A DNA stretch of 31,928 nucleotides. It comes from a virus. Shown piece by piece: positions 1,400 to 22,027 of this stretch (positions within the stretch are counted from its first letter, which is position 1; each line of letters starts with the position of its first letter). The translations under genes and the position numbers were made by a program. The DNA lies in IMG/VR virus record IMGVR_UViG_3300048587_000483, positions 1 to 31,928 of that record; one strand, given 5' to 3'. The notes under the pieces were generated by a model. It did not search any database. It saw only the letters and a program-made list of their open reading frames with translations, and was not told the DNA's origin.

Positions 1400-1454
1400 G
1401 AACACGAAAAGGCCCCATCTCCGAGTTGGAGATGGGGCCGTGCGCCCTCTGGGG
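1400..1454 (-). terminator. Rho-independent terminator T1 with conserved upstream box
   Basis: On the minus strand, a perfect 12-bp stem (1439-1428 with 1422-1411, 5-base loop) is followed by TTTT at 1410-1407. It lies between the tail fibre gene (stop 1563) and the lysis genes. The stem is preceded by the box CCCCAGAGGGCGCACGG (1454-1438), which also occurs at T2 and T3. The 54-base element matches T2 at 52 positions. Confidence 0.85.
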
Positions 1455-1562
1455 TGGCAGGAGTTGGGTGTAGAGACCGGTCTGCAGACCAACCGACGGG
1501 CTCCCGCCTCGTCGCACCCTTCCTGCCTATGCCTGCAATCTAGGGGGTGGACCTTCCCCCGT
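1455..1562. other. Non-coding gap before the lysis unit, with a 12-bp perfect palindrome
   Basis: No gene is seen here. GGTCTGCAGACC at 1479-1490 is a perfect palindrome, a possible operator or regulatory site. No convincing -35/-10 pair was found by eye. Confidence 0.35.
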
Positions 1563-2300
1563 CTACCGCGTGATCCGCATCGTTGCCAGCGAGTGGAGCC
1601 CTGAGGCGATCTTCACCTCTCGAATCGCCGATCGCGCTTCGTTCCCCGTGGAGGAGAAACCCCCGAGGAAGAGCCGCATCGAGCCAAGCGCGCTGATCGC
1701 TGTTGCCGCGCTGCTCGCCGAGGTCAGCCCCGCCCCAGCATCCAATGCCACGGTCCCACCCGTGAGCAGCGAGGCCAGTTGCACCACCACTTCCTGCGTC
1801 CGCGTCACCGGTGCCGCGGTGTTCTGGCTGGCGTCGGTCGTGGCCGTGTCGATCGCCGCCACGTACGTCCCGGCGTCTCCTGCCCGGCGGAGACTCAATC
1901 GCGGCACCGACGCCCCCAGCGTCCAGAGGTAGGCATCGTCACTTACTCCGCCACTCGTGGCGTACCAGGCAGGCACATGCCGCACGTAGATCGTGAGATC
2001 GGTCGGCAGCGAGAAGAGGAGGTCCGCCGTGACGACTTCGGCCACTCGCGGCGAATCGGCCTCATCGACGCGGAGCGCGATGGCATCCACCCCACTGCCA
2101 GCGCTGTCAACCATGGCGAAGCGAGGGACATCGGCCGGCACCGAGACCGTACCCGCCACCGTCACGAGATCGGCGGCGGAGTTGCGCGCGAAGGTCAGCA
2201 CCTGACCCGTGCGGGCCACGAGCGAGGCATCTTCCGCGCGCCAGTCGAACAGGAGCGAGGAGGGACGCGCGAAGGGATTCCGAGGCGTGAGGGCGCTCAT
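1563..2300 (-). CDS. Tail fibre / receptor-binding protein with lectin-like fold (predicted)
   Basis: This 245-residue protein is rich in Ala, Thr, Ser and Val. It has the pattern of phage tail proteins with a concanavalin/LamG-like jelly roll: an early FARNSAADLV segment, then VPRFAMVD, a run of beta strands, and a late SMRLFLGGF strand. The last tail gene in an operon is often the host-contacting protein. The chosen start is ATG at 2300, which overlaps the upstream stop as ATGA; a start six codons further upstream would lie inside the neighbour. It is followed by terminator T1. The fold is judged by eye and the receptor role by position. Confidence 0.6.
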   Translation of the reverse strand: MSALTPRNPFARPSSLLFDWRAEDASLVARTGQVLTFARNSAADLVTVAGTVSVPADVPRFAMVDSAGSGVDAIALRVDEADSPRVAEVVTADLLFSLPTDLTIYVRHVPAWYATSGGVSDDAYLWTLGASVPRLSLRRAGDAGTYVAAIDTATTDASQNTAAPVTRTQEVVVQLASLLTGGTVALDAGAGLTSASSAATAISALGSMRLFLGGFSSTGNEARSAIREVKIASGLHSLATMRITR

Positions 2301-3085
2301 GACAACCACCCCCGCCACGAGGTGAGCACCAGCCCGCCTTCATCGACCTCCATGGTGTCGCCCTCCATCAGCACGATCTCGCCGTCGTTCGGGTTCAGGG
2401 CGTCGAACGCATCCGTCCCCACGCCTGCGGTGAGCTTCTGGATCGGCATCGGCTGATCGTAGTCGACCTGCAGCACATCGGCCGAGGTGAGGGCGAAGCT
2501 GTCCTGGTCGAATCGCATCTGCCCCACGACCTCCCCGGTCCGGCTCCGCACCGTCACCACGGGCGCCGTGGACGTCGGCAGTAGCATGAACCGATTCCGA
2601 CCCGTCGCCGTCCCGAACGGCACCGGCACCCTGACCCCAGCCCCACCACTGGTCACGATCGGCGAGCGATCATACCAGAGCGGATCCCGGCAGACGATCT
2701 GGCCGATCGACTCCACCTGACCCGAAAGGAGCTTGATCCCGAAGGTGTCGTCTGCCGCGCCCTCGAACAGCCCGTAGCAGACCTTCCCGGGGGCGTCGAC
2801 GGTCTCGATCTCGAGCAGCCCCTGCAACGCGTAGTGCCAGGCGCCAAGCGTCTCGCGCCCCGCCACCAACGTCGAGGAGCTGGCATTGTTCGTCCGGACA
2901 CCAAGCGTCAGGGTCCGAGGCTCATAGACGGCCCCGCGCGTACTGGGGCGACTACCCCGCCTGCCCACTGACTGGACGCTGCTGTAGCGCGTGGTCGGAG
3001 GGCGGAGCCACCCAGCCAGGTCGATTGGCTCGACCCCGTACTCCTCAATGGGCACGCCGTTGATGGCGATGGATTCGAGGCTCAC
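2297..3085 (-). CDS. Distal tail protein (Dit-like, siphovirus tail family)
   Basis: The protein has 262 residues. The N-terminal part (SIAINGVPIEEYGVEP) and the central RDPLWYD segment near residues 133-139 fit Dit-type proteins, which form the hexameric ring joining the tail tube to the baseplate. The C-terminal half resembles the beta-sandwich that follows the belt domain. The order tape measure, hub, Dit, fibre is slightly unusual, since Dit usually precedes the hub. The start is GTG at 3085 with a GTGA overlap to the hub gene. Confidence 0.65.
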   Translation of the reverse strand: MSLESIAINGVPIEEYGVEPIDLAGWLRPPTTRYSSVQSVGRRGSRPSTRGAVYEPRTLTLGVRTNNASSSTLVAGRETLGAWHYALQGLLEIETVDAPGKVCYGLFEGAADDTFGIKLLSGQVESIGQIVCRDPLWYDRSPIVTSGGAGVRVPVPFGTATGRNRFMLLPTSTAPVVTVRSRTGEVVGQMRFDQDSFALTSADVLQVDYDQPMPIQKLTAGVGTDAFDALNPNDGEIVLMEGDTMEVDEGGLVLTSWRGWLS

Positions 3086-6000
3086 ACGCTCCCCTTGCTC
3101 ACGAGCTGCGCGATGAGCTCGAGTGGTCGGTTGTCGAGTTCGATTTCAGGGCGCGGGGGATCTCGGCGGACGTCCTCACCCTGCGGGAGGAGCCAGCGCC
3201 GGACCGCGATGATGCGCGGCGAGTTGGTGGCCAACCCACGTTCTGGATCACGCAACCGCACCCGTGCGCCGAGGAGGAATGGCAGGGCGCTGTCCTCTTC
3301 GGTCGCCTCCACTCGGTAGTGCGCCAGCGGGGAGGAGCGATCGACGAGGTACTCCTGCGCGGCGCGCCACAGCCACCCACCACCAGCCGACCGCCGGAAC
3401 GCCGGCAGGTCCTCGGTGCCCCACCAGATCGAGACCGTGGGGTTGTAGAGCACGACCGAGCCCTGCACGGCCGTCAAGCGGAGTCGCAGGCGATACCACC
3501 CGTAGGCCACCGGTGCGTCCGGTGTCAGCACCACATCGAGCAGCGCTGTCTCACCCGTCACGTAGTTGGAGAGCGGGATATCCAGCGTCTCATCCAGGAG
3601 CGTAACGGGCGTGCCCTGCCGGCTGGTGAGGGTCACCTGCAGCGTCGGCTGCTCCCAGTTCTGCTGCCCGAAGTGGTAGTTCGCGCAGATCGCCCCGAGA
3701 GCGAGCCGAAGGGTATGGATCGTCCGCAGGGGCTCGCTGATGTGGACGTCGAGGTACGCGTCCTGCCCCTCAACAGGACCTCCATGGTCCCAAGCGAGCA
3801 CGAACCACTCATCGAGGTCCGCGAGGCTTGCCGGGAGCGGGCGGTACAGGGTGGCAGAGGCGTTGTTGAGCGGGGAGTTGTGCTGGCTCACACACGGCAC
3901 GGTAATGGGTAGCCCAGGCGCGTCCGCAGTGGAGTTCAGGTCCGAGATGCCCCAGTAGTCCACCTCGAAGCCACGGTCCCAGAAGGTCGCATCCTGCACG
4001 AACGCGAACCCCATCCGCTCGTGGCCACCGCCCCGATAGTCCACTGCCAACGTGTGAGAGAACAGCTCCGTCTCGTTCGCCCCGGTACCCGCGTCGCTTA
4101 CATACACCGTCACAAGGAGACCTGTGACGGTGACACGGAACCGCTTGTTCCGAGGGAAATCTGGAAGCGACTCCGAATTCCCACGCGCGAAGTTTACAGA
4201 GTGGAGGGTGGCGTTCACCTCATCGTCATCTACCCCGGCCGACGGCACGCGGGTCAGGCCCACGAGCACCTGTGTGTTGACCGAGGGCTTCGGGATGATT
4301 CTGACGTAGTAGTACTCCGTGTCCCCGGAACCCGGCACATGGAAGCAGATGCGGATTTCGCCGCCCTCAATCGCGGTGCGACGGAGGTCACAGATCAGCC
4401 CGAAGTTGTCGTCGGCAATGTCGGCGTCGACGCGGCAGACCGACGTCACCCCGAACCCGCCGTTATTCTGTCGCAGCACCCCACTCGCGGTCACGATGTT
4501 CGCGAGTCCGCTGTTGTAGTCATATCCGGTGACGCCTGAGGCCCCTGGATCCGTCGGCGTATGACCGGACGCAGCGCCGGAGCTGGAGCCGAAGGTGTCC
4601 GCGAAAATCACGACGGGGCCAGCTGTCACCAGCGCCCGCTGCATGATCGTGAATGGGAACGTGGACCCCGCCGCCTTGATCATGTCGCCGGGCTGCACGA
4701 CGAAGTTTCCCGGCAGATCCTCGATGGTGATGTCCACCACCCCGTCGCTCGTTGATGGCGTCGGGGTGGTGGCTGTCAGACCAGAGACCACGGCCTGGGT
4801 GTAGCCGTCGCCCTCACGCCAGCGCCGCTCGAAGTGGTCGGTCTCGTACGCGTGCAGCTCCCACCCGTCCGGCTGCTCGTTGGCGTCGAAGGTCTCCGGC
4901 ATCGGCACGCGCACGAGGTTGCGCTCGGCACGACGATCCGGCGCACTGGTGGGCTTGTCGATGTGGCCGTAGATCCCGACGGCAAGCGGGCTCCACATCT
5001 CCCGGAACCGTGTGCCGTCGAGGTTCGTGACCCAGACGGGATCGTTCAGCCGCCAGGGGAGCAGATCCGGCAACCCTGCCAGCGTGACCCGGCTCAGCAG
5101 GTAGTTCACCGCCGTGATCTCGCGCAGGTGGTGCCCACCCCGACTGGTGGCACTCCAGAAGCGCAGGAAGAAGGTCGTGCGGGTCGTGTCCGTTCCGCCG
5201 ACGACATACCAGCCGTCACCCAGCAGGCTGAGGCAGTGCACGTCGGTCTGGGTGTCCGCGGCGCCCACTGCACCGAGCGACTGGAACCGGTCATCCACGA
5301 TCAGGTCCGCGTTCGCGTTGAAGGACGCGATGCGGTTCTCCTCCACCCCGGCATGCACCCAGCCGTCCCAGCCCACCAGCGAGGTGATCGCTCCGCCGCC
5401 GTGCACAGCAGCTGCGATCGTCGCCACGAGACTGGAGTCGGCCGCTGCGAAGAGGCTCAGATCCCCGGTGACGCTGGCAACCCAGACCTCCTCGACGCCG
5501 CTGGCATATGCGAGGAGCCGGTGATCATCGGAGGCGTCCTCGAGGTCGGCGTCGATGTCCGTGAGGTCATCGAAGGCCATGGTCGCCACATCGAACCGCA
5601 CCAGCTGCCACGCGCCCGCGAGATCGGCCAGGCACCAGAGCACCCCATCACCATCGGCAATGCGCGTCGGCGTCACCGTGGCACCGATCGTCGCGTTGGT
5701 GATCGTGGTGAGGGAGTTGTCGCTCGGATCGATCAGGACCATGCCCGCATCCGCGGTGGTCCAGATCATGTCGTTCGTGGTGTCGTGGTGGAGCCAGAAG
5801 GCCCCTGCGAGGGTGATCGTGCTCTCCACCGACCCGTCGGCCGGGTCCACCACATCGACCTCGTCCTCACCGGCAATGAAGAGCCGGTCCGCGCTCTCGA
5901 CGTACACGATCGAGGTCGGTGCCACCACGGTGAGGTCGTGCGTGGCCGTGATTGCTCCGGTGGGCAGATCCACTACCACCAGCTGGCCGACCGCGGCCCC

Positions 6001-6981
6001 GCGACGGATCGCGCACCACAGCTGATCACCGACACGAGCCGCAGCGTGCATGCGCGAGAGCTCTGCGCCGCTGTCCCCGCTGATCGTGACCTCAACGGGA
6101 GGCGGTACCAGCCCCACGAGCGCCTTGTCGGGGTAGAGCACACCGGGCGCGTCGTTGCCGACGAACTGATCGTCCTCGATCGCGAAGGGCGCCTCAGAGA
6201 GGTCGCGATCCGAGACCTCCACGATCCCCTGCGAGGGATTGGCCTCGAGGACGAACGGCACCTCCTCGATGCTCTGGGCGGCCAGATCACCACCGCTCGT
6301 GAGGCCGGTCACGCTCACGATCGTGGCCTGCAGGTCCGCGTGGATCTCGCGGTCGAGCGCCTGCACGTTCTTGCCCACGATGACCAGGGGCCGTTTGGTC
6401 GGCAACAGGACGCGGAGCGAGAGGAGGAAACCGTCGTCCCCGTCTCGGTCTGCCACGACACTCGCGAGGGTGCCCTCGACCAACCGCCGTGCCACAGCCA
6501 GGCAGGACTCACCGGCTACGGTGATCGTCGCGGCGCCATCCACCCCGATCTCCCCGACACTCCACCACCCCTTGCCGCGGCGCGCCATGTTGTCGACGAT
6601 GAGCTGACACCACCCACGGGGGGAGAGCGTGGCCGTGAACGTCTCGGTCCAGACCCCATTCACCAGCATCTGCAGCGTCACGTCGCCCAGGTCGTGCAGG
6701 ATCGGCGTCGCCTTGATGCGGGCAGTGGGGGTGAGGTCTTCGTCGTAAAGATGCTTGATGCGGTATTCCCGCACCTCGCCGAGCTCGTTGCGGAGCCGGA
6801 GGACGTTGCGGATCGCCAACGCGCCCAGGGCAGGGGAGTCCCGCCGCACCACGAGCGAGCACTCCTCCGCCCCGTCCAGCCCCTCACCGTACCGGCAGGA
6901 GACGAACTCAGAGACGTCGATGATCCGCGACCCGTTCGGGTCGGCGGTGACGTTGGTGCGGACCGAGAGGAGCGAGCTCAT
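3082..6981 (-). CDS. Tail hub / tip protein (Tal-like) with propeller-like region
   Basis: This 1299-residue structural protein belongs to the tail tip. Residues 1-290 have the beta-rich character of phage tail hub proteins. Residues about 295-615 form a series of repeats with DxxxG-type turns typical of seven-bladed beta-propellers (for example VVDPADGSVEST, LIDPSDNSLTT). The hub-like sequence then resumes near EITAVNYLLSRVTL. Residues about 790-1000 look like a concanavalin-type sandwich (GPVVIFADTFGSSS onward), and the C-terminal 300 residues are again beta-rich and may bind sugars. It starts with an ATGA overlap to the tape measure gene. Its length is within the range of phage central tail proteins. 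Domain limits are by eye. Confidence 0.7.
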   Translation of the reverse strand: MSSLLSVRTNVTADPNGSRIIDVSEFVSCRYGEGLDGAEECSLVVRRDSPALGALAIRNVLRLRNELGEVREYRIKHLYDEDLTPTARIKATPILHDLGDVTLQMLVNGVWTETFTATLSPRGWCQLIVDNMARRGKGWWSVGEIGVDGAATITVAGESCLAVARRLVEGTLASVVADRDGDDGFLLSLRVLLPTKRPLVIVGKNVQALDREIHADLQATIVSVTGLTSGGDLAAQSIEEVPFVLEANPSQGIVEVSDRDLSEAPFAIEDDQFVGNDAPGVLYPDKALVGLVPPPVEVTISGDSGAELSRMHAAARVGDQLWCAIRRGAAVGQLVVVDLPTGAITATHDLTVVAPTSIVYVESADRLFIAGEDEVDVVDPADGSVESTITLAGAFWLHHDTTNDMIWTTADAGMVLIDPSDNSLTTITNATIGATVTPTRIADGDGVLWCLADLAGAWQLVRFDVATMAFDDLTDIDADLEDASDDHRLLAYASGVEEVWVASVTGDLSLFAAADSSLVATIAAAVHGGGAITSLVGWDGWVHAGVEENRIASFNANADLIVDDRFQSLGAVGAADTQTDVHCLSLLGDGWYVVGGTDTTRTTFFLRFWSATSRGGHHLREITAVNYLLSRVTLAGLPDLLPWRLNDPVWVTNLDGTRFREMWSPLAVGIYGHIDKPTSAPDRRAERNLVRVPMPETFDANEQPDGWELHAYETDHFERRWREGDGYTQAVVSGLTATTPTPSTSDGVVDITIEDLPGNFVVQPGDMIKAAGSTFPFTIMQRALVTAGPVVIFADTFGSSSGAASGHTPTDPGASGVTGYDYNSGLANIVTASGVLRQNNGGFGVTSVCRVDADIADDNFGLICDLRRTAIEGGEIRICFHVPGSGDTEYYYVRIIPKPSVNTQVLVGLTRVPSAGVDDDEVNATLHSVNFARGNSESLPDFPRNKRFRVTVTGLLVTVYVSDAGTGANETELFSHTLAVDYRGGGHERMGFAFVQDATFWDRGFEVDYWGISDLNSTADAPGLPITVPCVSQHNSPLNNASATLYRPLPASLADLDEWFVLAWDHGGPVEGQDAYLDVHISEPLRTIHTLRLALGAICANYHFGQQNWEQPTLQVTLTSRQGTPVTLLDETLDIPLSNYVTGETALLDVVLTPDAPVAYGWYRLRLRLTAVQGSVVLYNPTVSIWWGTEDLPAFRRSAGGGWLWRAAQEYLVDRSSPLAHYRVEATEEDSALPFLLGARVRLRDPERGLATNSPRIIAVRRWLLPQGEDVRRDPPRPEIELDNRPLELIAQLVSKGSV

Positions 6982-9900
6982 GCCCGCCCCGAGGCGCCCT
7001 TGAGGAGCGAGGCCCGGCCACCGAACTCGCGGTTGATGCGGGCCGCCACGCGTTCCGCCAACCGCTCGGTGTCGCGCAGGTCATCGGAGTCCACCCGGAT
7101 CTCGATCTGCAAGACGACGTTGCCCTGAATCACGGTCCCATTGGAACCCACCCGAGCACGTGCCGCCGGCTGCTCGACCTCGGCGGACTCAGCCTCGGCA
7201 CGGCGCAGGAGGTTGACGTAGGTCTGGATCTGGTCATTCAACGCCTGCTGCTCCGGCGTGATGCCACCCGGGCCCGCCTCAGCAGTGGTGGTGAACATCT
7301 CCAACAGCTGATCGATCGACTTGCCCGTGAACCCGAAGAGGTCGCCGGTCTGCTTGACCTGCTGCTCGAGCGAGGTCTGGAAGACGTCGAACTCCTGATT
7401 CAGGGAGGCCACCGCCTGGCGCATCTTCTCGGCGGCCTCAGCGGCGGCGATCGCTGCCTCATCCATCGCCGCGACGAACTCATCACCGAGGATGTCAATG
7501 AAGCGGTCGAACTCTTCCTGCGTGATCCGGCCCGCATCGAGGAGCTTCTGGGCGGCCTCGATCTCGGCATCCTGCTGCCGCTGCAGTTCCGCGGCCCGGA
7601 CGTACCGGATCGCCTCCTCATCGCCTTCCAACTCCGCCCGCCGGCGGATCAGACCCATGCGGAAGTCGAAGTCCTCCTGCTCCCGGGTCCGGGCACGATC
7701 GGCCGCGGCCTTCTCGGCTTCGGCCTGCTGGATGATCGCCAGGCGTGCCAGCGAGGCCGCGTCCATGCCCTCGCGCACCGCCTGGTTGTATTCCTCTTGG
7801 GCAGCGATCGCCTCGCGCAGCACCGCAGCTTCTTCGGTCTTGCCGTCGAGCTCGAGCTGGCGCACATCCAGCCCCGCGTTGAAGCGCAGCTGGTTGGCGA
7901 GCTTCTCGCGGGCGCGGGCTTCGGCCTCAAGGCCCTGCGTGTACTCCAGCTGGGTGCGCATCGACTCGTCGAACGCGTCCCCGAACTCTTCCTCGAGACG
8001 CAGGCGCTCGCGGAGCTGCTCATTGGCGAACGCGGCCGCATCGGCTTCGGCGTTTCGCCCCTGCGCACGGAGGGCCCGAACCTCGAGGTCCTCACTCACC
8101 TGGGCGAGGAGGAGTGCCTGCTGCTCAAGCAGATCCTGCAGGGCCGCCTGCCCGGCCTCACCCAACTCTTCGAGACGGGCGATCAGGACGTCGATGTCCT
8201 CGGTGGACCCGACCACACCCTCAAGCCCATCGCGCAGCGCCTTGATGCCGTCGACACCTTCCTCGCGGAAGATCTTGTTCAGGACCCCGAGGTCGACGCC
8301 GAAGCGATCCCGGATCTCCCGACCGAGCGGGGAGCCGCGGAAGATCTTGACGGCCTCGGCTTGCGTGTCCTCGAACTGCTTGGCCAACCGGCGCTGTTCG
8401 CCGGTGAAGCCGTCGTAGAACCCGCTGGTGGACTTGAGGAATTCGTCGAGGCTCTCGGCGAACTGGTTGTTCACCCGATCGTACTCCCGCTGGATCGCCT
8501 CCGCCTTGGAGCCGAGACCGGCCAGACCCGAGACGATGCCGGTGACACCGCCGACGATGGCGCCGATGGGACCGCCGGCGGCGAACCCTGCAGCGGCCCC
8601 ACCGAGGGTGCTGCCGAAGACACCACCAGCCCCATCACCGCCGATATCCTGACCGATCCCGGCCCCGATGCTGCCGGCCGCGAAGCCCGCGAGAGCGTTG
8701 GCCTTGCCAGACCCCGGGCCCTCGAACCCCTTGCCGATCCCGCCGAAGGTGGTGGCGCCGGAGGTGATGTCCTTCAGGAGCTGATCAATCCCCAGGGCCT
8801 TGATCGTCATCGTCGCCGCGATCGAGGCCGCCGCCTGCTTGGCGAGGTCCTCCACGCTGGCGAAGAACTGCGAGAACCCCTCGAGCCCGTTGTCGAAGAT
8901 CCCGGCAAAGCCGCGCTGGAAGGCGTCACTCGTGGTGCGCAACGCCGCCTCGTAGCTCCGCTGCGCCTCCTGAATGTCGCGCTCACGGATCGCAGCATTG
9001 GCGTCGACGAGTTCCTGTGGGGTCTTCACCCCATCGATCCCGCGGAGCTGCAACCCACCGAAGGGCGTCCCCTGACCCACGACGCGAGGGGTGAGGGCCG
9101 CGCCAATGAGGTCCGCGCGCCGCTGCACATCCAACAGCTGCAGGAGTTCCTTCGGGACCGCCTGGCCGAGCCGCCCGAAGGACTCTCGGAGGCCGTTGAC
9201 CGTCTGCTCATACTCCAACTGAATGACGCGCGCCGTGTCCGTGTGGGCGCGTGCGATCGTGGTCGCGGCATCGAGCTGGAGATCACGCAGCGCCGTGGCG
9301 TCGCGGCGCGCTGCCTCAGCCCGGCGCTCGGCTTCACTGGCCTGCTGCTTTTCGAAGTCAGCCCGGCTCTTGGCGATACCCTGACGCTCGAGCTCTCGAT
9401 CCCGCTCCTGTTGGGCAATGGCCTTGAGCGTCTCTCCGCGCTTCTCGATCGCCTTCTGGATCGCGGCTTCGTCGATGATCAGCTGCGGTGCCGCGCCACC
9501 CTGCGACACGAACCGCCCGCGCCGTTCGGCCGCGATGCGGGCTTCGTCGGCAGCCAAACGCGCCCGCAGGTTCGCCTGATTCTCCTGCGCAGTGACACCC
9601 TGCTCGAGGTTGTAGCGCTTGAGGAGGGACTCGATCAGCTTGTCGGTCTCCTCCTTCACGCGCCGGGTCTCCCCAGTGAGCTTCTCGTACGCCGCCGAGA
9701 TCAGAGCGACGCCAGCGAGCACACCGACCGTGACCGCCCCACCTGCGGCCAGCGAGCCGAAGGCCGACACGACGCGCCCGATTGGCCCCGGGATGCCGGC
9801 CGCCGAAAGGGACAGGGTCGTGAGAGCCCGGTTCAACTGGTTGGAGGCGGAGACGGCCTGACGCTTCGCGGCGGCGGCAGCGGCCACCCGCGTCGCATTC

Positions 9901-10262: not shown

Positions 10263-10263
10263 G

Positions 10264-11033: not shown

Positions 11034-11057
11034 ACAGACTCCTTGGGGCGTGGCCCC

Positions 11058-11085: not shown

Positions 11086-11092
11086 GCCGTGG

Positions 11093-12286: not shown

Positions 12287-12321
12287 GACTCTCTCTCCTC
12301 AGTGGCGCGGCGGTGCCGCGA

Positions 12322-13525: not shown

Positions 13526-13872
13526 GCGATTACCTCACCCGGGTAGCGACGGCGCGCGTAGTCCCGGAGCCATGCCGGGGCATCGTCGTTCAACCGGATC
13601 TCGACGACGCCGTAGCGGATGTGCTGACTCCGTAGCTTCTCCGAGGTCCACTCGCGCACCCAACCACCCCGAGGGCATGCCGCCGCGATGAGGTTGGATT
13701 GCACGCCATCGACCGTCGCAGTGCTGTTGCGCATTATCTCCAGGTCCTCGTACCACTCCACCGTTTCCATGTCGAACACCGTGACAGCCGCAGGCGCCCC
13801 CAGCGGGATCATCCCGCAGGAGCCCGCCACCACACCGGCGAGGACGGAGAGTGCCGCGCGACGCGTGATCAC
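13522..13872 (-). CDS. Tat-signal lipoprotein-like protein within the head-tail module
   Basis: A 116-residue protein that starts ITRRAALSVLAGVVAGSC: twin Arg residues, a hydrophobic stretch and a Cys at position 19, as in Tat-exported lipoproteins. The remainder is charged, with TVEWYEDLEIMRN and EKLRSQHIRYGVVEIRL segments. An exported lipoprotein between connector genes is unusual. Superinfection-exclusion lipoproteins are a known phage class, so that is one possibility. Alternatively it is a connector accessory whose N-terminus only mimics a signal. The lipobox (AGSC) is not fully canonical. The start is GTG at 13872 with a GTGA overlap. Confidence 0.5.
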   Translation of the reverse strand: MITRRAALSVLAGVVAGSCGMIPLGAPAAVTVFDMETVEWYEDLEIMRNSTATVDGVQSNLIAAACPRGGWVREWTSEKLRSQHIRYGVVEIRLNDDAPAWLRDYARRRYPGEVIA

Positions 13873-14390
13873 CGGACCACCGTCGGCTGGCTGGCGTAGA
13901 CGAGCCCGCGCAGAATCGGGCGGATCACCTCGCGCATGTACTGCGCGCCGGTGCTCTGCGCGGTCGCGCTGGCGTCGAAGCTCATCGAGAGTTCGCTGCC
14001 GAAGTCGATGCGCGTGAGACCCTGCTGCGCGTTCGGCGCGAACGGGTCCGGGCGACAGGCTTCCGCGGCAAGGAAGAAGCAGAGCCGTGCATGGGCCTGC
14101 TTCAGGGCGATGGGGAGTTCTGTGGTGGTGTAGTCGCCGAAGCCGTCCCCGCGACTCACCCCACGACGGGGGCAGGCAAGGGCCTGCGTCTCCGTGGCCG
14201 GCCAGCCGACGAACGCCAGCTGGTCCAGCAGCTTGGTGGCCCCGATGGCGATGCGTACCTGATCATCCTCCTCAGCCATGATCCACGTCGTCGGAGATGG
14301 GAACAGCTGATCCGCCACCGTCGCCAGCTCGGCGAGGGTGTTGTAGCTGTTCGCGTCCGCGGCGCCGATCGTGGCGATGAGGGTGGGCAC
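13869..14390 (-). CDS. Head-tail adaptor, DnaT-like / gp6-like
   Basis: This 173-residue protein has the adaptor pattern: an N-terminal ADANSYNTLAELATVADQLF segment, then AIGATKLLDQLAFVGWPATE, then CPRRGV and a long helix IALKQAHARLCFFLAAEA. Such proteins (annotated as DnaT-like or gp6-like) form the ring beneath the portal. Here the segment before PRRGV is ALACPRRGV, close to the family's typical W-P-R-x-G-V. It starts at GTG 14390. The preceding small gene stops three bases upstream. Confidence 0.7.
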   Translation of the reverse strand: MPTLIATIGAADANSYNTLAELATVADQLFPSPTTWIMAEEDDQVRIAIGATKLLDQLAFVGWPATETQALACPRRGVSRGDGFGDYTTTELPIALKQAHARLCFFLAAEACRPDPFAPNAQQGLTRIDFGSELSMSFDASATAQSTGAQYMREVIRPILRGLVYASQPTVVR

Positions 14391-14393
14391 GGG

Positions 14394-14558
14394 CTACTTC
14401 GCCTTCGCGTCCTTGGCCTCACCCTTGGCGGCCTTCGCGGCCTCCCACGGCTCGGTCTGGTGCACCTTGGGGTCGAAGGCGGCGGCGTCGATGCGCACCG
14501 GCTGCCCGGCGAACTTGTCCTTCCAGTAGACCAGGCGTGTCGCGGTGGGGTTGCTCAT
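14394..14558 (-). CDS. Small basic protein downstream of the coat gene
   Basis: A 54-residue protein that starts at ATG 14558 with GGGAGC upstream. It begins SNPTATRLVYWKDKFAGQPV and ends in an Ala/Lys-rich tail (KGEAKDAKAK). The same slot after the coat gene often carries a small head protein of unknown role. Not recognised as a known family. A hairpin separates it from the coat gene. Confidence 0.55.
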   Translation of the reverse strand: MSNPTATRLVYWKDKFAGQPVRIDAAAFDPKVHQTEPWEAAKAAKGEAKDAKAK

Positions 14559-14582
14559 GTGCTGCTCCCGTCGATGTGGAAC

Positions 14583-14620
14583 GGGGCGCACGGCGATCCT
14601 CGCGGACCACCGTACGCCCC
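14583..14620 (-). other. Intercistronic hairpin after the coat gene
   Basis: On the minus-strand RNA, GGGGCGUACGG (14620-14610) pairs fully with CCGUGCGCCCC (14593-14583), including one U-G wobble. The loop is 16 bases. There is no T-run. It lies six bases after the coat stop, so it may protect or attenuate coat mRNA. GGGCGYACGG in its stem is the same as in the box upstream of T1-T3. Confidence 0.5.
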
Positions 14621-14626
14621 TCAGGC

Positions 14627-15760
14627 TCAGGCCCGCAGGCGGGCCGCGAGGTTGCCGTCGAGCACCTTGACGCCGAACAGGCAGTCCAGGGCCACGTGGA
14701 CCTCGGACGAGTTGCCGACGTAGTAGACACGGCTGCGGACCGAGATGCCGGACCGCTCATCGGTGACGGTGGCGATCTGCGCACCGAGGTTGTTGCCCAT
14801 CTCGGAGAGCGGGGCCATCGCGAGGGCAGCCCAGTTCCGGTGGAACGCGAGGTTCGACACGTGGGTGTCGAGGTTGATGGTCACCACCGCACCGGACGCG
14901 TAGTCCTGCACGAGTGCCGGGTAGATCCCGACGCTGGTGATCGCGCCACCCGAGGCGGTCTTGTCCTCGGTGAAGACGTAGCGCTGGGTGTTGCCCGCGA
15001 TGACGAACGAGTCACCGGCCTTGATGGTGCCGTCGGTCGTGATCGACCCGATGGCGATCGAGGTGGCCCCCTTGTCGGCATCCGCCGTCAGGGCACCGAC
15101 CGGGTCAGCCGCGACACCCGGGGTGTGGCTCGGGGTGTTCTGGTTGACGAAGAACTCCATGCCGAGACGCTGGCCGAGCGAGCCGCGCATCACGCCGTCG
15201 GTGGTGCCCGACGCATCCGCGCGGGTCCACTCCGGCAGACCCAGCACCCCGGCTTCGCCGGTGCCGTCGAGCATGAAGTGCATCATGCCCTCGTCCTCGA
15301 GCGGGACGTTGTTGTTCCGGAGCACCTTGCGGGTGGCGGTGATGTCCGCCCACGCGATCGCCGCGGCCGCCTGATCGTGGTACCAGGGGACGTACTTGTA
15401 GAGCGCGGCGAGGCTCTCGTCGATCTTGTTCGCCAGCGCGTAGGTCGCCGGGCGGATGTGCTCGCGGATGATGTCGTCACCCGTGAAGCTCAGCTCCTTG
15501 TCGGTGAGCTTGAACTTCACTTCCTTCCACTCGGTCAGCTGGATGTCGACGTTGCCCGCGTCGATGTCCTGCGCGGTGCTCGGCGCGTTCTCGGCCGTGA
15601 AGGTCGAGGGGCGACGAATGGAGATCGTGGAACCCCGCGACTGCGGGGTCTTGTCGTAGCCGCGGTAGACGCGGCCGGCGAGTCCGAGATTCTTCTCGAG
15701 GGCGATGATCGCCTCGTTCGCGTAGAAAATCGGATCGTAGACACTCAGGACGTTCGGCAT
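14627..15760 (-). CDS. Major capsid (coat) protein, P22 coat family
   Basis: The protein has 377 residues. N-terminal features match P22-type coat proteins: an ANEAIIALEKNLGLAGRVYRG helix, RGSTISIRRPSTF, then QDIDAGNVDIQLTEWKEVKF with DKELSF, and the helix PATYALANKIDESLAALY. Residues about 210-285 form a beta-rich insertion (GATSIAIGS, IKAGDSFVIAG), consistent with the accessory domain placed in the HK97 fold of this family. C-terminal FHRNWAALAMAPL is also typical. It starts at ATG 15760 with GAAGG upstream, directly after the scaffold gene. P22-type coats are best known from podoviruses but are common in siphoviruses as well. Confidence 0.85.
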   Translation of the reverse strand: MPNVLSVYDPIFYANEAIIALEKNLGLAGRVYRGYDKTPQSRGSTISIRRPSTFTAENAPSTAQDIDAGNVDIQLTEWKEVKFKLTDKELSFTGDDIIREHIRPATYALANKIDESLAALYKYVPWYHDQAAAAIAWADITATRKVLRNNNVPLEDEGMMHFMLDGTGEAGVLGLPEWTRADASGTTDGVMRGSLGQRLGMEFFVNQNTPSHTPGVAADPVGALTADADKGATSIAIGSITTDGTIKAGDSFVIAGNTQRYVFTEDKTASGGAITSVGIYPALVQDYASGAVVTINLDTHVSNLAFHRNWAALAMAPLSEMGNNLGAQIATVTDERSGISVRSRVYYVGNSSEVHVALDCLFGVKVLDGNLAARLRA

Positions 15761-15879
15761 GATGAAACCCTTCGTGCGAGAGGTTGCTGCGCCCCGCGAT
15801 GCGGGGCAGTGATTGCGTTCCGGGCACCTGACCCGTCATGCGCTCGGCCTCTCGCCTGCGCCCTGTCCTGCGTGTGCTG
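15761..15879. other. Gap between scaffold and coat genes with a short GC hairpin
   Basis: No gene is seen. CCCCGC-ATC-GCGGGG near 15793-15807 is a small hairpin on the minus strand, without a T-run. It may balance scaffold and coat expression. The ribosome site of the coat gene lies at its left end. Confidence 0.35.
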
Positions 15880-16638
15880 CTACCCGTCGATCAGCTTCAG
15901 CGGGCGCCCTTCCTTCTCGGCGCGCGCCTTGGCGGCCTGGTACTTCCGAGGATCCTTGGCGTCGGTGCGGGTGATGGTCATGTCGCCCGTGGCGACCCCA
16001 CCACCACCACCGCTCCCAGCGCCCATCCCACCAGCATCAGAGCCCTCGTAGACCCGGGGCTTCTTCGCCTTGTAGTAGTCCTTCCAGTACTTCTCGACCG
16101 TCATGGTGTCGGGGCGGCCGTCCTCATCGAGGACGATGACCTTCCCGTCCTTCATGTCGAACCGGTGACGGTTGAGGCGCAGCTGGTCCTCGATCTCATC
16201 CCGGCGCACCTTGGCGTCGATCATCGCCAGGCGCACGGTGTCGGAGATGTCGCGATCGAGGAGCTTCTGCTCGAACTCCTGCGCCCGCTGCTCCGCCGCG
16301 GTGACCTTCGTGCCGTACTCGGTCTCGAACTTCTTCCGGAGGCTCTCGATGGTCTCGGCGTCGCCGCCCTTGCCCTTGTTCTTCAGCTCGTCGTGCTCGC
16401 GCTTGAGCTCGCTGATCTGCTGCGGGGTGAAGCCGAGCGACTCGAACTCCGCCGCCTTCTGCTTCCAGGTCTTCACGCTGCCGCGCTCCTCATCGAGCGC
16501 CTTCCGCAGGGCGAGCGTGTCGGGATGCTCCCGCACGTTCACCTTGAGCACGAAGCCCCCGTCCCGTTCCTCGTACAGCGGCCGCAACGACTCGGCGACC
16601 TTTTCCAGTGAATCCACCACCGGTGACAACGCGTCCAT
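15880..16638 (-). CDS. Capsid scaffolding protein
   Basis: A 252-residue highly charged helical protein with a central coiled coil (residues about 45-125, FESLGFTPQQISELKREHDE, then KKFETEYGTKVTAAEQRAQE). A Gly/Ala-rich linker (GGMGAGSGGGGGVA) and a basic C-terminal tail (KYQAAKARAEKEGRPLKL) follow. Scaffolds use a basic C-terminal helix-turn-helix to bind coat protein, which fits this tail. It is directly upstream of the coat gene, as expected. It starts at ATG 16638 with GGGAG upstream and is the first gene after terminator T2. No protease domain is fused to it. Confidence 0.82.
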   Translation of the reverse strand: MDALSPVVDSLEKVAESLRPLYEERDGGFVLKVNVREHPDTLALRKALDEERGSVKTWKQKAAEFESLGFTPQQISELKREHDELKNKGKGGDAETIESLRKKFETEYGTKVTAAEQRAQEFEQKLLDRDISDTVRLAMIDAKVRRDEIEDQLRLNRHRFDMKDGKVIVLDEDGRPDTMTVEKYWKDYYKAKKPRVYEGSDAGGMGAGSGGGGGVATGDMTITRTDAKDPRKYQAAKARAEKEGRPLKLIDG

Positions 16639-16682
16639 CGGTCACTCCCTGGGAGTCTCTCCCGCTGGTTCCGTTTCTCGCG

Positions 16683-16736
16683 GAACACGAAAAGGCCCCA
16701 CCTCCGAGTTGGAGGTGGGGCCGTGCGCCCTCTGGG
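16683..16736 (-). terminator. Rho-independent terminator T2 with conserved upstream box
   Basis: A perfect 12-bp stem on the minus strand (16722-16711 with 16705-16694, 5-base loop) is followed by TTTT at 16693-16690. It separates the portal/MuF block from scaffold and coat. It is identical to T1 at 52 of 54 positions. The two differences (C16701, G16715) form one base pair and are compensatory. Confidence 0.85.
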
Positions 16737-16785
16737 TGCGGGTTGCCCCGCGTATGGTGCCGGGTCTCCCCGGCGCTGTCACAAT

Positions 16786-17013
16786 CTACGAACTGTCGCC
16801 GTCATCGCGCAACTGTTCGTCGAGCCACGCCTGCAACCGGGGGGTCGCCTCCATGCCGAGATGCACACCGACAGCCCCTGGGAGATACCTGCACCCGAAG
16901 ACGAGATCCGCATCGTCCAGGTGCTGCACGCGGTAGAGCGCCTGACCCTTGCAGCGCCAGCAATCGTCATCGGCGCCGAGGCATTCCCGGCAGACCGCGA
17001 AGTAGAGGTCCAT
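16786..17013 (-). CDS. Small zinc-finger protein
   Basis: A 75-residue protein starting at ATG 17013. CRECLGADDDCWRCKG places Cys8, Cys11, Cys18 and Cys21 as a compact zinc knuckle like those in DnaJ-type fingers. The C-terminus (LQAWLDEQLRDDGDSS) is acidic. A longer frame upstream is rejected because it overlaps the MuF gene and has a random look. It is the last gene before T2. No clear ribosome site is visible and the function is unknown; a head-related accessory role is possible from position. Confidence 0.6.
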   Translation of the reverse strand: MDLYFAVCRECLGADDDCWRCKGQALYRVQHLDDADLVFGCRYLPGAVGVHLGMEATPRLQAWLDEQLRDDGDSS

Positions 17014-17056
17014 GGGCCGAGCATACCGGGTCGGCCCCGTGCCGCCAAGCCCGCGA

Positions 17057-17998
17057 TCAGCGACCACGGCGCCCCAGCTGCTCGAGGAGCCGATCCCGGG
17101 CGGCGGTTGCTGGCTGTCCCCTGCGGAACCCTCTTGGCACCAGCCGCTCGATGCACATGCAGTTCGGGTGCTGGATCGGGCCGACGGAAACGACGCCATC
17201 GCGGGAGGTGTACGACCCACCGATCTCGGCGCGCTCCCCATGGAATGGCGCGCAGATCTTGCAGACCATCTCCAGACGAGAGGTGACCCACTCCCGTTCC
17301 CATTCGGCCGGATTCAGGGTGCCTTCGGCGACCAGCCGGGCCCACTGCAGCCGCCGTCCCTCGGACTGCGCCCGCATGACCTCGGTCCGGGCAATCGTCT
17401 CGGCACGTTGCCGGAGCTTCTTCGCGGCGAACTTCGCGACCATGCGGTCCACCTGGTCAGGCTTCCGCCCCTCGCCCTCGAGGCGGGTTCGGTACCGCTC
17501 GACCTGCTCGGCTTGCTGTCGCGTGAGGCCGATCATGTCCCGGATCTCGCGCGCCAGCTTGGTGGGATGGGTGCCATTGGCGATGCCGCGGCTGATCGCC
17601 TCACGCAGGGCCGCCTCGCCCTCAGTGGTGATCCCCTGGATGCGTCGCAGATCCGCCTCCCGAATGGCTTGCTGGGTGTCCGGTCGCTCGAGCGCGTGCC
17701 GTGCCCACGAAACCCGCACCAGCTGCTCCGCCTGCAAGGGTGCCGGCAGGCTGGTGCGCGCGGCGTCCCAGGCGGCTTCGCGGATGGGGCTCAGCTGGGT
17801 GATCATCCGTGCGAGGGCGTTCCGCATCGCCGTGTCGTCGACGGCTCGGACCGTGGCCTCGATGTTCCGCACCAGAAGATACCGCTCCACCGTGGCGAGC
17901 CAGTTCCCGGCCTTGGCATCGGCGACCGCGCGCAGCAGCTCGCGCCAGAGCCGCCCGATGGTCTTCTCGACGAGGAGGTCCAGTTCGCGGGGGGTCAC
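17057..17998 (-). CDS. MuF-like minor head protein
   Basis: The protein has 313 residues, with long helices in the N-terminal part and a MuF-type C-terminal part. ARTEVMRAQSEGRRLQWARL lies near 203-222, then CKICAPFHGERAEIGG (Cys246, Cys249) and a final HPNCMC (Cys280, Cys282). In related phages these proteins sit in the head next to the portal and are injected or assist head assembly. The start is GTG at 17998, overlapping the upstream stop as GTGA; a longer version would overlap the upstream gene in full and reads as random sequence. Confidence 0.85.
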   Translation of the reverse strand: MTPRELDLLVEKTIGRLWRELLRAVADAKAGNWLATVERYLLVRNIEATVRAVDDTAMRNALARMITQLSPIREAAWDAARTSLPAPLQAEQLVRVSWARHALERPDTQQAIREADLRRIQGITTEGEAALREAISRGIANGTHPTKLAREIRDMIGLTRQQAEQVERYRTRLEGEGRKPDQVDRMVAKFAAKKLRQRAETIARTEVMRAQSEGRRLQWARLVAEGTLNPAEWEREWVTSRLEMVCKICAPFHGERAEIGGSYTSRDGVVSVGPIQHPNCMCIERLVPRGFRRGQPATAARDRLLEQLGRRGR

Positions 17999-18471
17999 GC
18001 GACGACCCGCCGGCGGTGGTCGACCGCATACCAGGAGATGACCTTGGCATCGAGGAGCGAAGCGCACTCTCGCGCGTAGACCTTCACCGGCACCCACGCC
18101 TTGGTGTTGTTGTCGATCACCCGCCCGTTGTGGTAGACGAGGACATGGCGCTCGATGAAGAGCGCGATCGCCAACCGCCGGCCGATGGGAGGCGGGGCCT
18201 GAAGCCACGCCGAGAGGGTGGGCTCCTTCCCCTCCTCGTACTCATCCCAGCGGACGCAGAAGGAGCGGAACAGGTTGAGGGTCCGGGTCAGGTACTTCAT
18301 CTGGACGCGTTGCGTCTTCCGCACCTGCCGGCGGCGGTCCGGGTAGGTCGCGGCAATCAGCCGAGCGGCGAGGTCCACACTCGGAATCCCGAGCACCACG
18401 GCGATCATCCACGGGCCGCAGAACCGATTGCGGCCCGTAGGCGTGAAGCGGGGGAAGACCGATCGGCTCAC
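17995..18471 (-). CDS. Candidate papain-fold (C39-like) cysteine peptidase in the head module
   Basis: This 158-residue protein starts at GTG 18471 (GTGA overlap). NRFCGPWMIAVVLGI at 15-29 resembles the catalytic Cys region of C39/papain-like proteins (usually CGP followed by a small residue; here CGPW, Cys18). RHVLVYHNGRVIDNNT puts His109 followed by Asp120 or Asn121, as in the His and Asn/Asp part of that fold. The spacing is plausible for a catalytic triad. It lies between portal and MuF genes, where many phages encode a maturation protease or internal head enzyme. Substrate unknown: coat processing, lysis or an injected role are all possible. Confidence 0.55.
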   Translation of the reverse strand: MSRSVFPRFTPTGRNRFCGPWMIAVVLGIPSVDLAARLIAATYPDRRRQVRKTQRVQMKYLTRTLNLFRSFCVRWDEYEEGKEPTLSAWLQAPPPIGRRLAIALFIERHVLVYHNGRVIDNNTKAWVPVKVYARECASLLDAKVISWYAVDHRRRVVA

Positions 18472-18671
18472 CACTGCCCCTGATAGATGAACGCCTCGAT
18501 GGTTTCCCCTGGAGGAGACCACGGCGCCTTGCCGCGCACGTAGCGGTGCCGGGTCTTCGGCGCGTGGGCGGGATAGTCGCACGCGGCTGCTGCCAATGCT
18601 TCCGCCCGCGCACGTTCCCCGTCCTTCGGGCCCCCGAAGTAGCTCAGTGGGTCGGGTCGATCCTCGGTCAT
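18468..18671 (-). CDS. Small head-module protein of unknown function
   Basis: A 67-residue protein with DPLSYFGGPKDGERARAE, then KTRHRYVRGKAP and GETIEAFIYQGQW. It resembles a short conserved phage type with FGGPxDG near the N-terminus and HRY followed by an aromatic end, but the function of that type is not known to me. It overlaps the portal stop by four bases and the next gene by GTGA. Confidence 0.6.
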   Translation of the reverse strand: MTEDRPDPLSYFGGPKDGERARAEALAAAACDYPAHAPKTRHRYVRGKAPWSPPGETIEAFIYQGQW

Positions 18672-20110
18672 GCCACCATCTCCACGGGCTCGGTGGGCGA
18701 CTGCCTCAGGTCGATCTCCTCCTGCTTCACGTCGATCCGCTGCAGCAACCGCCCCCCACGCCGAATCTCGTTCATGAGGGTGGTCCAGGTGAGCTTGCCC
18801 TCGCTCTCCATGTCGTTCAGCACCCGGATCTCATCGACCGTCAGGGTGATATCCCGGAACGAGCGTTCCATCGTGATGGAGCCGCCATCCGGCTCGCCGT
18901 AGAAGGCGGCCATGGAGCCGAACGCGGCCTCGAGGGCGTCGTTCAAGGACCGAATCGCCCGGGCGAGCTTGGACTCCTCGCGATCGGCCTTGAGTTCGGT
19001 CTCGGTGGCCGTCTGCTCCACCGGGGCGTCCCGGCGGATCATGGAGTACCCCATCGACCCCATCAGCCGCTCGATGTCCATCCGGTCCTCGCGGAGCGGC
19101 TCGAGGGCGTTGCCAACCCCCTCCATGAACTTCGCGTCCCCGCCGACGCCCACATCGATCCCGGTGTCGGAGTTCATCTGGATCACTTCGCCCGGGACCG
19201 CGTTCACCCGGCCGATCCAGACGGGGATCGCGATCGCGGTCTTGTGCATGGAGTAGGCACGCGCGCTCTTCAGCTGCGTGTGCTCGAGGTTGGCGTAGGC
19301 CATGCCACGGAGCGGAGGTCGCGAACGGAAGAGCCCTCGCTTCTCGCCCCCGTAGAACGGGTGGACCGGGATCCACCGGGGGCCGCGCAGTCGACCCGAC
19401 TCGATGATCGCAAACTCCTGCTTGCCACGGCCCTTCCTCGGCATCTCCTCGTGCACCTCGAAGGTCACGTACGGCACGGGATCGCCCGCCTCGGTGATCT
19501 CCACCGCCTGGCGGAGCACGCGATACCGGAGCTTCTCCACGTACCCGAACCCGTCGTCGAGCTGGGCGTCTTCCTTGATCTTGACCATTGTCGGCACCCA
19601 CCGACCCAACACCCGCCCTTCATGCCAGGCGTCGATCTGGTCAGCGCTGAGGCGCACCATGTAGGCGCGGAGGCCGAGCCGCTGTTCCTGCTCGAGCGTC
19701 AGGTCAGGTGGCGCCGGCGGGTAGTCCACGAGGATCGCCCCGTGCCCGTCCTGCAGGCTCCAGTCGAGGCACTCCTGCGTGAAGACGTCCCCATGGGTGC
19801 CGCGGAGGTCGATGTCTTCCCAGTCGCTTCGGATCCGGTCCGGCACGTCGTCACCCAGCTCCGGCGGATGCCGGGTGCCCAGCCCCACAAGGGACGCAAT
19901 GGTCTCGTCCAGGGCTTCGAAGCCGAACGTGAGCTTCTTCCGCGTCTCGTAGTTGTTCAGCCCCTCCGTCTTGCCGCGGGGGATGATACGGTCAGGGTCG
20001 TTCTGGATGCTCTCATTGAGGTTGCGCACCCGGCGGATCAGTTCCCATCGGGGCCGCATCTCGCGGAACGCTGCGCACTCATAGGCGGGCGAGTTGGTGT
20101 CGGCGCTCAT
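18668..20110 (-). CDS. Portal protein, DUF4055-type
   Basis: The protein has 480 residues and follows TerL directly. It begins with an ECAAFREMRPRWELIRRVRN helix, has ENLNNYETRKK-type early features (EGLNNYETRKKLTFGFEAL), and a central beta region with PWIPVHPFYG-like RWIPVHPFYGGEKRG. The later long helix region (NALEPLREDRMDIERLMG, SLNDALEAAFGSMAAFYG) is typical of portal stems. This pattern fits the DUF4055 portal group. It forms the dodecameric DNA gate at a capsid vertex. It starts at ATG 20110; the GAGG of its ribosome site follows the TerL stop immediately. Confidence 0.82.
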   Translation of the reverse strand: MSADTNSPAYECAAFREMRPRWELIRRVRNLNESIQNDPDRIIPRGKTEGLNNYETRKKLTFGFEALDETIASLVGLGTRHPPELGDDVPDRIRSDWEDIDLRGTHGDVFTQECLDWSLQDGHGAILVDYPPAPPDLTLEQEQRLGLRAYMVRLSADQIDAWHEGRVLGRWVPTMVKIKEDAQLDDGFGYVEKLRYRVLRQAVEITEAGDPVPYVTFEVHEEMPRKGRGKQEFAIIESGRLRGPRWIPVHPFYGGEKRGLFRSRPPLRGMAYANLEHTQLKSARAYSMHKTAIAIPVWIGRVNAVPGEVIQMNSDTGIDVGVGGDAKFMEGVGNALEPLREDRMDIERLMGSMGYSMIRRDAPVEQTATETELKADREESKLARAIRSLNDALEAAFGSMAAFYGEPDGGSITMERSFRDITLTVDEIRVLNDMESEGKLTWTTLMNEIRRGGRLLQRIDVKQEEIDLRQSPTEPVEMVA

Positions 20111-20117
20111 CGGGGCC

Positions 20118-21326
20118 TCAGTAGGAGACGGTGACGGTGCGGAAGTCGCGCTGCCGGATCAGCGGCGCGAGGGCGTAGCGGATAGCGTCGATGTCATGGT
20201 TGTGGGCGTCGACCAGCTGCGGGAGGACGTCCCCCGTCCGCTTGTCGACCTTGTAGCGGTAGAGCCGCATCTCTTCGGCGGTCCGCTTGCAGCGGGGGTG
20301 CACGACGATCTGGTCATAGCTGCGCAGGTGCTCGATCCCGTCCTCGACGGAACCAGACCACTTCGGCGCCGCCTCCACCCGCCACCCACGGCGCACCATC
20401 TCGGCGATGGTCTCCGGTCGCGCGCTGTCGGCACGGATCACGTAGCGCTTAGCGTCGGGGACGCGGGACCAGCTGCGCTCGAGGTCGTCCAGGGTGAGAC
20501 CGATCCCACCCTCGGAGTACTCGATCCAGAGTCGACCATCCCCGATCCACATGCGCACCAGCACGGCAGGGTCGCGCGCGAAGCCCCAGTCCGCTCCGTA
20601 GTAGGGGCCCTGCCACCCGGACTGCGGTTCGAACTCGTCCACGATGTAGCGGCCGGCGAAGACCTGGGCATCAGAGCGGGTGAGCGGCTCGCCACCCCAG
20701 ACGTGGGCATAGGCTTCCGGGTCCCGGCGCTTGAGCTCGCGCGCCTCTTCAGCCAGCACATCGGGGAGCCACGGGTTGTCACGGTACCCGACGCGGTGCA
20801 CCAGGGCACGCGCTGGCGGGTCAGCGACGAAGCGCTGATAGGTCGGGTCGGTCGGTTCAGCGGGGTTGAAGGAGACCCAGATCTCGGAGTCGGGCTTCCG
20901 GATCGTCGGGATCAGCACCTTCCACGAGGTATCCGAGACGGCCTCCGCCTCCTCGATCCAGCAGACATCGACGCCCTCCGTCGACTTCACCTCGTTCACG
21001 TCCCGGCGAAGTCCCTTGAAGAGGAACTCCGTGCCGTTGGAGCCGAAGATCCCGGTCTGCTGCACGGTGTAGCACCAGCCCAGACCCAACTTCTCGATCT
21101 GGTCACTGAGGAGCCGGTGTACCGAGTCCTTGATGGACGCCTGGAACTCGCGGGCGCAGAGGATGCGGAGGGAACTCCGCGCGCCGAGGATCAGAAGCGC
21201 GCGGCCGAACTGCCACGACTTCGCCGACCCTCGCCCACCATAGGCGACGCGGTACCGCGCACCGCCCAGCGGAGGGTCGAAGAGGAAGCCGAAGGCTTCG
21301 GGGATCTCGACCGCGAGGCTAGTCAC
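20118..21326 (-). CDS. terL: Terminase large subunit (ATPase and nuclease)
   Basis: The protein has 402 residues. Walker A is YGGRGSAKS (about 29-37) and Walker B is VDVCWIEEAE (119-128). The nuclease domain has YYGADWG with Asp246, VIRADSARPE with Asp300, and AHNHDIDAIRYAL with Asp380, the expected acidic metal-binding residues. It fits the Terminase_3/PBSX-type family. It translocates DNA into the prohead and cuts it. The start is GTG at 21326, overlapping the TerS stop by eight bases. Confidence 0.95.
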   Translation of the reverse strand: MTSLAVEIPEAFGFLFDPPLGGARYRVAYGGRGSAKSWQFGRALLILGARSSLRILCAREFQASIKDSVHRLLSDQIEKLGLGWCYTVQQTGIFGSNGTEFLFKGLRRDVNEVKSTEGVDVCWIEEAEAVSDTSWKVLIPTIRKPDSEIWVSFNPAEPTDPTYQRFVADPPARALVHRVGYRDNPWLPDVLAEEARELKRRDPEAYAHVWGGEPLTRSDAQVFAGRYIVDEFEPQSGWQGPYYGADWGFARDPAVLVRMWIGDGRLWIEYSEGGIGLTLDDLERSWSRVPDAKRYVIRADSARPETIAEMVRRGWRVEAAPKWSGSVEDGIEHLRSYDQIVVHPRCKRTAEEMRLYRYKVDKRTGDVLPQLVDAHNHDIDAIRYALAPLIRQRDFRTVTVSY

Positions 21327-21942
21327 CCTTGGGCCTCACGAGGACGACCTCGATCGAGGCGGGCGGGAGAGGGGCGCCATCCTTGCCGGTGTGCTCGTGC
21401 TTGTTCACCAGCATCCCAAGGTGCTGGGCGATCAGGTTCAGCGCCGGCGTCTTCGCGTGGAGCTTGAACTTCGTCTTCCGCACCGGCTCAGGGAGGCCGT
21501 CCGCGCCCTTCTGGTAGACCACCTCCTGCGTGATCTCTGAGATGGCCCGGGTCGCCTCCTCAGGCATGTGCGACCAGTCGAGGGCGATCTCCCCATTCTC
21601 ATCGAACCGCACGTAGTTCCGCATGTCCGCGAGCCCGATGATCGCGAGCTCACGCAGCACATCATCCGCCTTGACCCGAGCTCGCTCCCGCCGCGCCTCC
21701 AACTCTTTTTCCACAATTGCGGCGATCTGGGGAGTTTTCAACAATCGCGCGCCTTGGGAGTAGGCTGCCTTCGGGGCGTATCCACACCGGATGGCTGCCT
21801 GCGTCGCGTTGAGGTCGACCAGGTACTCCGCAGCGAACCGGGCGCGGTCCGGCTTCGGCCGGCGAGGGCGGGGGACGCGCTTCGGCGGCGCCTTCGGGGC
21901 GGCCTTGGTCTTCTGGTTGGGAGCGGTCTTCCGCTTGGTCAT
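21319..21942 (-). CDS. terS: Terminase small subunit
   Basis: The protein has 207 residues with start ATG 21942 and GGAG eight bases upstream. The frame extends further to 21969 but that part lies in terminator T3. A basic, Pro/Lys-rich N-terminus is followed by FAAEYLVDLNATQAAIRCGY, the hallmark of the Terminase_2 family DNA-binding domain. Then comes a helical oligomerisation part and a C-terminal tail. It recognises the packaging site and activates TerL, whose gene overlaps this stop. Confidence 0.92.
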   Translation of the reverse strand: MTKRKTAPNQKTKAAPKAPPKRVPRPRRPKPDRARFAAEYLVDLNATQAAIRCGYAPKAAYSQGARLLKTPQIAAIVEKELEARRERARVKADDVLRELAIIGLADMRNYVRFDENGEIALDWSHMPEEATRAISEITQEVVYQKGADGLPEPVRKTKFKLHAKTPALNLIAQHLGMLVNKHEHTGKDGAPLPPASIEVVLVRPKGD

Positions 21943-21956
21943 CTCGGCTCCAACGC

Positions 21957-22005
21957 ACAAAAGCCCCACCGCGTCCTGCGCGGTGGGGCCGTACGCCCTC
22001 TGGGG
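21957..22005 (-). terminator. Rho-independent terminator T3 with conserved upstream box
   Basis: On the minus strand an 11-bp stem (21989-21979 with 21973-21963, 5-base loop) is followed by TTTT (21962-21959). It lies between the small-gene block and TerS. Its stem differs from T1 and T2, but the upstream box CCCCAGAGGGCGTACGG (22005-21989) is shared apart from one base. Confidence 0.85.
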
Positions 22006-22027
22006 TCAACGGTCGGAAGCTACCGAT

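Follow-up and report, generated by a model that had tools for sequence, protein, structure and literature searches.

The window analysed here is a whole IMG/VR virus record of 31,928 bases (67% GC), and every reading frame in it that looks coding is on the minus strand. Matches to PHROGs bear out the block layout proposed in a sequence-only reading of this DNA, namely small genes, then the terminase small subunit (TerS), TerL, portal and minor head, then scaffold, MCP and tail, and then lysis. Three similar elements, T1, T2 and T3, are intergenic and on the same strand as the genes, occupying the gaps 1384-1562, 16639-16778 and about 21943-22019, respectively. T1 lies between the tail-side genes and the lysis pair (605..1383, minus strand), which starts 27 nt past the T1 stem and comprises a holin-like ORF (1045-1383, minus strand, no family match) and an endolysin (605-1048, minus strand, phrog_894, Peptidase_M15_3). 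T2 separates the head-morphogenesis region from the gene of the head scaffolding protein (15880..16638, minus strand, phrog_206), which starts 55 nt past the T2 stem and is followed by the gene of the major head protein (14627-15760, minus strand, phrog_283). T3 stands between an ORF (22020-22505) with no family match, a low coding score and an uncertain end, and the TerS gene (21319..21942, minus strand, phrog_51), whose ATG start is 19-20 nt past the T3 stem. The genes neighbouring T1, T2 and T3 belong to unrelated families. A tRNA search found none.

The gaps and the early region hold some further features. The gap ahead of T1 (1454-1562) contains a perfect 12-bp palindrome, GGTCTGCAGACC, which is possibly an operator. 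In the gap before T2 (16723-16778, minus strand) are two small GNRA-tetraloop hairpins, CCGGG-GAGA-CCCGG and GCGGG-GCAA-CCCGC, and after T2 (16639-16693, minus strand) are the hairpins GTTCCG..CGGAAC and GGGAG-AGA-CTCCC; T1 and T3 are without such an arrangement. When the early region (22958-28162) was compared with contig L123, up to 97% DNA identity was seen, in short stretches, with the group of contigs to which L123 belongs (G014, comprising L112, L123 and L124), and the structural block is unrelated. The phage is a mosaic, and its early region is patchy and recombined.

Read on the minus strand, the three elements share one layout, a 14-nt box, a 12-bp GC-rich hairpin with a 5-nt loop, and a short U-tract, with the consensus CCCAGAGGGCG[C/T]AC, a stem starting GGCCCC, the loop and a T-run. 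T1 consists of the box CCCAGAGGGCGCAC (1440..1453), the hairpin GGCCCCATCTCC-AACTC-GGAGATGGGGCC (1411..1439, 12 bp, -25.8 kcal/mol) and the tail TTTTCGTGT (1402..1410). T2 has the same box (16723..16736) and the same tail (16685..16693), and its hairpin GGCCCCACCTCC-AACTC-GGAGGTGGGGCC (16694..16722, 12 bp, -27.8 kcal/mol) has C-G at pair 8, where T1 has U-A. In T3, the box CCCAGAGGGCGTAC (21991..22004) carries one change from that of T1 and T2, and is followed by the hairpin GGCCCCACCGCG-CAGGA-CGCGGTGGGGCT (21962..21990) and the tail TTTGTGCGT (21953..21961). The 14-nt box pattern CCCAGAGGGCGYAC occurs three times in the window against 0.24 expected by chance, each time directly 5' of a hairpin as transcribed and nowhere else. 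The outer flanks of the three sites have nothing in common; the unshared flanks and the unrelated neighbouring genes show that a short cassette was copied.

Terminators were scored by a method of the d'Aubenton-Carafa kind, which combines hairpin energy per length with the U-tract. On this scale, which was calibrated on E. coli and may not transfer to the phage's own host, the perfect-stem scorer gave 50, 56 and 42 for T1, T2 and T3 on the minus strand (next best, 1.4), and the folding scorer gave 50, 56 and 52, with no other minus-strand site reaching 10. The best score on the plus strand was 14. As intrinsic terminators, T1-T3 rank far above all other sites of the window, and every strong terminator of this phage has the box. 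The hairpins are stable and GC-rich (12 bp, -25.8 to -27.8 kcal/mol), and fold far better than shuffled sequences (z from -4.4 to -5.7). A U-tract directly follows the 3' arm, UUUUCGUG in T1 and T2 and, past the terminal G-U pair, UUUGUG in T3; it is short but present, with a score of 4.0-4.5. With a tract this short (UUUU then CGUGU), the elements may terminate only weakly in the natural host. The stem, the U-tract and the scores agree with the sequence-only reading, in which T1-T3 were taken as terminators. That reading gave the base pairs on the plus strand; the transcribed strand is the minus strand, and the plus-strand sequence after the hairpins is GTGCGCCC or GTACGCCC, with no T-run, so that the hairpins are one-directional. 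An Rfam search with the elements gave no match.

As noted earlier from the sequence, T1 (1400-1453) and T2 (16683-16736) share 52 of 54 positions, and the two that differ form one base pair. On the plus strand these are T1418/A1432 in T1 and C16701/G16715 in T2, corresponding to pair 8 of the 12-bp stem; the chance that two random differences in 54 positions land on one pair and stay complementary is about 0.003. T3 was correctly said to keep the upstream box, but the stem then called different is that of T2, altered by two double changes and one G-U pair. Nine of its 12 pairs are identical to those of T2, and the others are pair 1 (G-U, not G-C), pair 10 (G-C, not U-A) and pair 12 (G-C, not C-G). 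In the three copies, all 36 pair cells hold standard pairs, 12 of 12 pairs form in each copy, and three of the 12 pairs covary by double changes; when the partner was slid by 1-3 columns, pairing was 39-58%, with 0-1 double changes. A covariation shuffle test, on the small counts of only three copies, reached the observed score in 20 of 500 shuffles. The evidence from these three related rows that pairing was kept while the sequence changed is modest but clear. The covariation shows selection on the stem pairing and does not show it for the flanks. The three copies also show what is tolerated, since the loop, the upper stem (with compensation) and the tail changed, and the box and the lower stem did not.

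Relatives were fetched by TerL (up to 72% identity), MCP (up to 58%) and endolysin (up to 75%), and scaffold relatives were added. The earlier reading had proposed looking in them for the stem pairing, and a paired stem of other sequence is held at the T2 place by L022 and L023, two nearly identical contigs (TerL 65%, portal 40%, scaffold 32-39%). Their minor head-scaffold gap contains GGCCCC-CCGGA-GTGAG-TCCGG-T-GGGGCC-TTTTCGT (GGCCCCCCGGAGTGAGTCCGGTGGGGCC-TTTTCGT), in which the stem base and the tail are the same as in T2, the upper stem is different and the box is missing. Together with the three double-change pairs, this stem supports the proposal that RNA structure is under selection. In addition, L090 has a strong terminator just ahead of its scaffold gene, and L085 has one just ahead of TerS. 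Four annotated relatives that carry a scaffold or structural gene here have only 22-44 nt ahead of it and no terminator in that gap; the placement is not universal among relatives. The recurrence of a terminator in two lineages is suggestive of a conserved slot, although it is no proof, since gaps are where terminators are found in any case. L112 (endolysin 75%) has no terminator at the T1 place. The gap before the lysis genes of L112 (2600-2640) has an 8-bp hairpin, GCTCCGGG/CCCGGAGC, whose 3' arm includes GGAG, probably the ribosome-binding site for the holin-like gene, and this hairpin is possibly a translational brake in place of T1.

The box itself, which the earlier reading had likewise proposed looking for in related phages, is absent from the relatives searched: in its register it was found in none of the fetched TerL, MCP, scaffold or endolysin relatives, and 0 of 50 terminators scoring at least 25 in relatives carry it. 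An exact box scan of the IMG/VR viral contigs gave two matches (L004 and L005), no more than chance, neither with a terminator stem, and a scan of viral contigs for box plus stem gave none. Among GTDB contigs, the box-plus-stem match in L091 falls within an ORF of the opposite strand, and that in L092 (beta-proteobacterium AAP51) is a box-like string ahead of an unrelated stem, with no genome-wide excess over a reversed-pattern control. The L092 string, GAGGGCGTACGGCCCCACCGCG (within 58-113), is the same as T3 over 22 bases, probably by chance, before an unrelated terminator stem, and follows the apparent end of what we take to be rpmA. A relaxed box-stem-tail pattern matched 11 times, and in none of these does a strong stem begin at the box. 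A covariance model run on 87 phage loci plus L091 and L092 gave E < 1e-10 for the window copies only; the next matches were L091 and L092, both originally fetched via the box pattern itself. When the model was run on 13 complete phage records (11 relatives, Braxoaddie and CcrKarma), good matches were generic hairpins in the latter two. BLASTN searches of phage and plasmid collections with the elements gave partial matches only, mostly to the stem. A literature search found no report of this box.

The claim that the flanks too are under selection is weakly supported by the comparison of T2 with T3, in which the box agrees at 13 of 14 positions and the loop at one of five (Fisher p = 0.006, rising to 0.035 when the tail is pooled into the loop; the data had been seen before this comparison was picked). 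This difference hints at a constraint on the box. However, since the box was found in none of the relatives searched, recent copying within this genome may account for part of the flank identity, as the refuting case named in the earlier reading had allowed for.

We consider it probable, with good confidence, that T1-T3 are three copies of one intrinsic-terminator cassette, copied within the phage and giving partial termination at block borders. The cassette of about 52 nt, composed of the box, the 12-bp GC-rich hairpin and the U-tract, would be of the Rho-independent type, and would have been copied twice within this genome and set at three borders of a one-directional gene series. From its anatomy, RNA polymerase transcribing the minus strand would make the hairpin, pause at the U-tract and be partly released. 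Point changes in the stem stood only where the partner base changed too, which conserved the pairing. Because there is no room for a promoter after T1 and T3 (27 and 19-20 nt), these hairpins would not be complete stops throughout infection unless transcripts for TerS and the lysis genes start before them. TerS and the lysis genes would be reached via read-through, antitermination, or transcripts begun before the hairpin; partial read-through or antitermination at T1 and T3 is likely. The likely role of the elements is a stepwise drop of transcript between blocks, together with a brake on run-through from early to late genes. The main yield is a clean annotation of terminators and operon borders in an uncultured phage.

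Some other explanations have to be weighed against this one. The T1/T2 identity might be a very recent duplication only, with the paired change made in one step by hairpin-templated (quasipalindrome) correction and no selection on RNA. The 52/54 identity with its sharp edges and a box without homologue elsewhere would suit such an origin, but T3 is more diverged and has two further double changes with every pair still formed, and in relatives the T2 place is taken by a stem of different sequence that still pairs; we regard such an origin as quite unlikely. We give still less credence to the elements being linkers that promote homologous exchange of modules, the terminator fold being secondary. 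They do lie exactly at module borders, and G014 shares early genes and the endolysin with this phage while its structural block is unrelated. However, G014 has no copy of the element, the shared DNA near T1 covers the endolysin (600-1050) and stops short of T1, and compensatory stem changes would be unexpected, with divergence lowering exchange.

Other explanations give the box a function. It might be a cis signal, acting as RNA or as DNA, through which a factor of the phage or the host modifies RNA polymerase for read-through late in infection, so that the three terminators act as one co-regulated switch. The box precedes each of the three terminators in one register and occurs at no other site of the window, it is more alike than the loop between T2 and T3, and without promoter room after T1 and T3 something must pass them. 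Against this, the box was found in no relative, none of the window proteins tested was recognised as an antiterminator, and with three copies from a single genome, constraint and recent copying cannot be told apart. Put-, nut- or qut-like antitermination calls for a site whose loss abolishes read-through and for a factor or RNA acting on polymerase; the comparison with such systems gave the box as a candidate site, no recognised factor and no Rfam match. We think such a signal unlikely, and the narrower version, in which CCCAGAGGGCGYAC is a putative dedicated site of a phage-encoded factor switching all three terminators from stop to read-through, very unlikely. If it were true, the packaging, head-tail and lysis blocks would be under co-regulated antitermination rather than promoters; a functional box would suggest that the phage governs its late blocks through read-through. 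It is highly improbable that the box forms an attenuator, its GGGC pairing with GCCC of the 5' stem arm in an alternative hairpin that delays the terminator. In the 5' half of the element alone this pairing reaches about -8 kcal/mol, but shuffled sequences fold as well as this alternative (z -0.05 and -0.69), and the full terminator stem, at -25.8 to -27.8 kcal/mol, is far more stable. Covariation cannot test the pairing, since the three copies hardly differ in either segment.

Among known systems, T1-T3 resemble the bacterial intrinsic (Rho-independent) terminator in that a U-run directly follows a GC-rich 12-bp hairpin and the elements occupy gaps that separate codirectional genes. They differ from it in that one genome has three near-copies, each with a 14-nt box of nearly constant sequence ahead of its stem, and in their short U-tract. 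The same stem base and a near-identical tail are found in generic high-GC GGCCCC...GGGGCC-TTTTC terminators of Rhodococcus phage Braxoaddie and Caulobacter phage CcrKarma, the CcrKarma copy being annotated as a predicted terminator. However, these have no box and do not occur as several copies with common flanks, and the Braxoaddie terminator, unlike T1-T3, lies between convergent genes. The SAS/ESAS elements of cluster K mycobacteriophages are also short repeated elements with an inverted repeat, in gaps before start codons of one genome. ESAS are imperfect 17-bp inverted repeats with a variable spacer, just upstream of the 13-bp start-associated repeat (PMC3203893). In contrast, T1-T3 form a perfect hairpin with a U-tract and carry a conserved box before the hairpin. 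The 13-bp SAS consensus GGGATAGGAGCCC (PMC3203893) is absent between the T1-T3 hairpins and the start codons, which places T1-T3 outside SAS/ESAS. By their anatomy, T1-T3 belong to the ordinary class of intrinsic terminators, and their unusual part is the shared 14-nt box.
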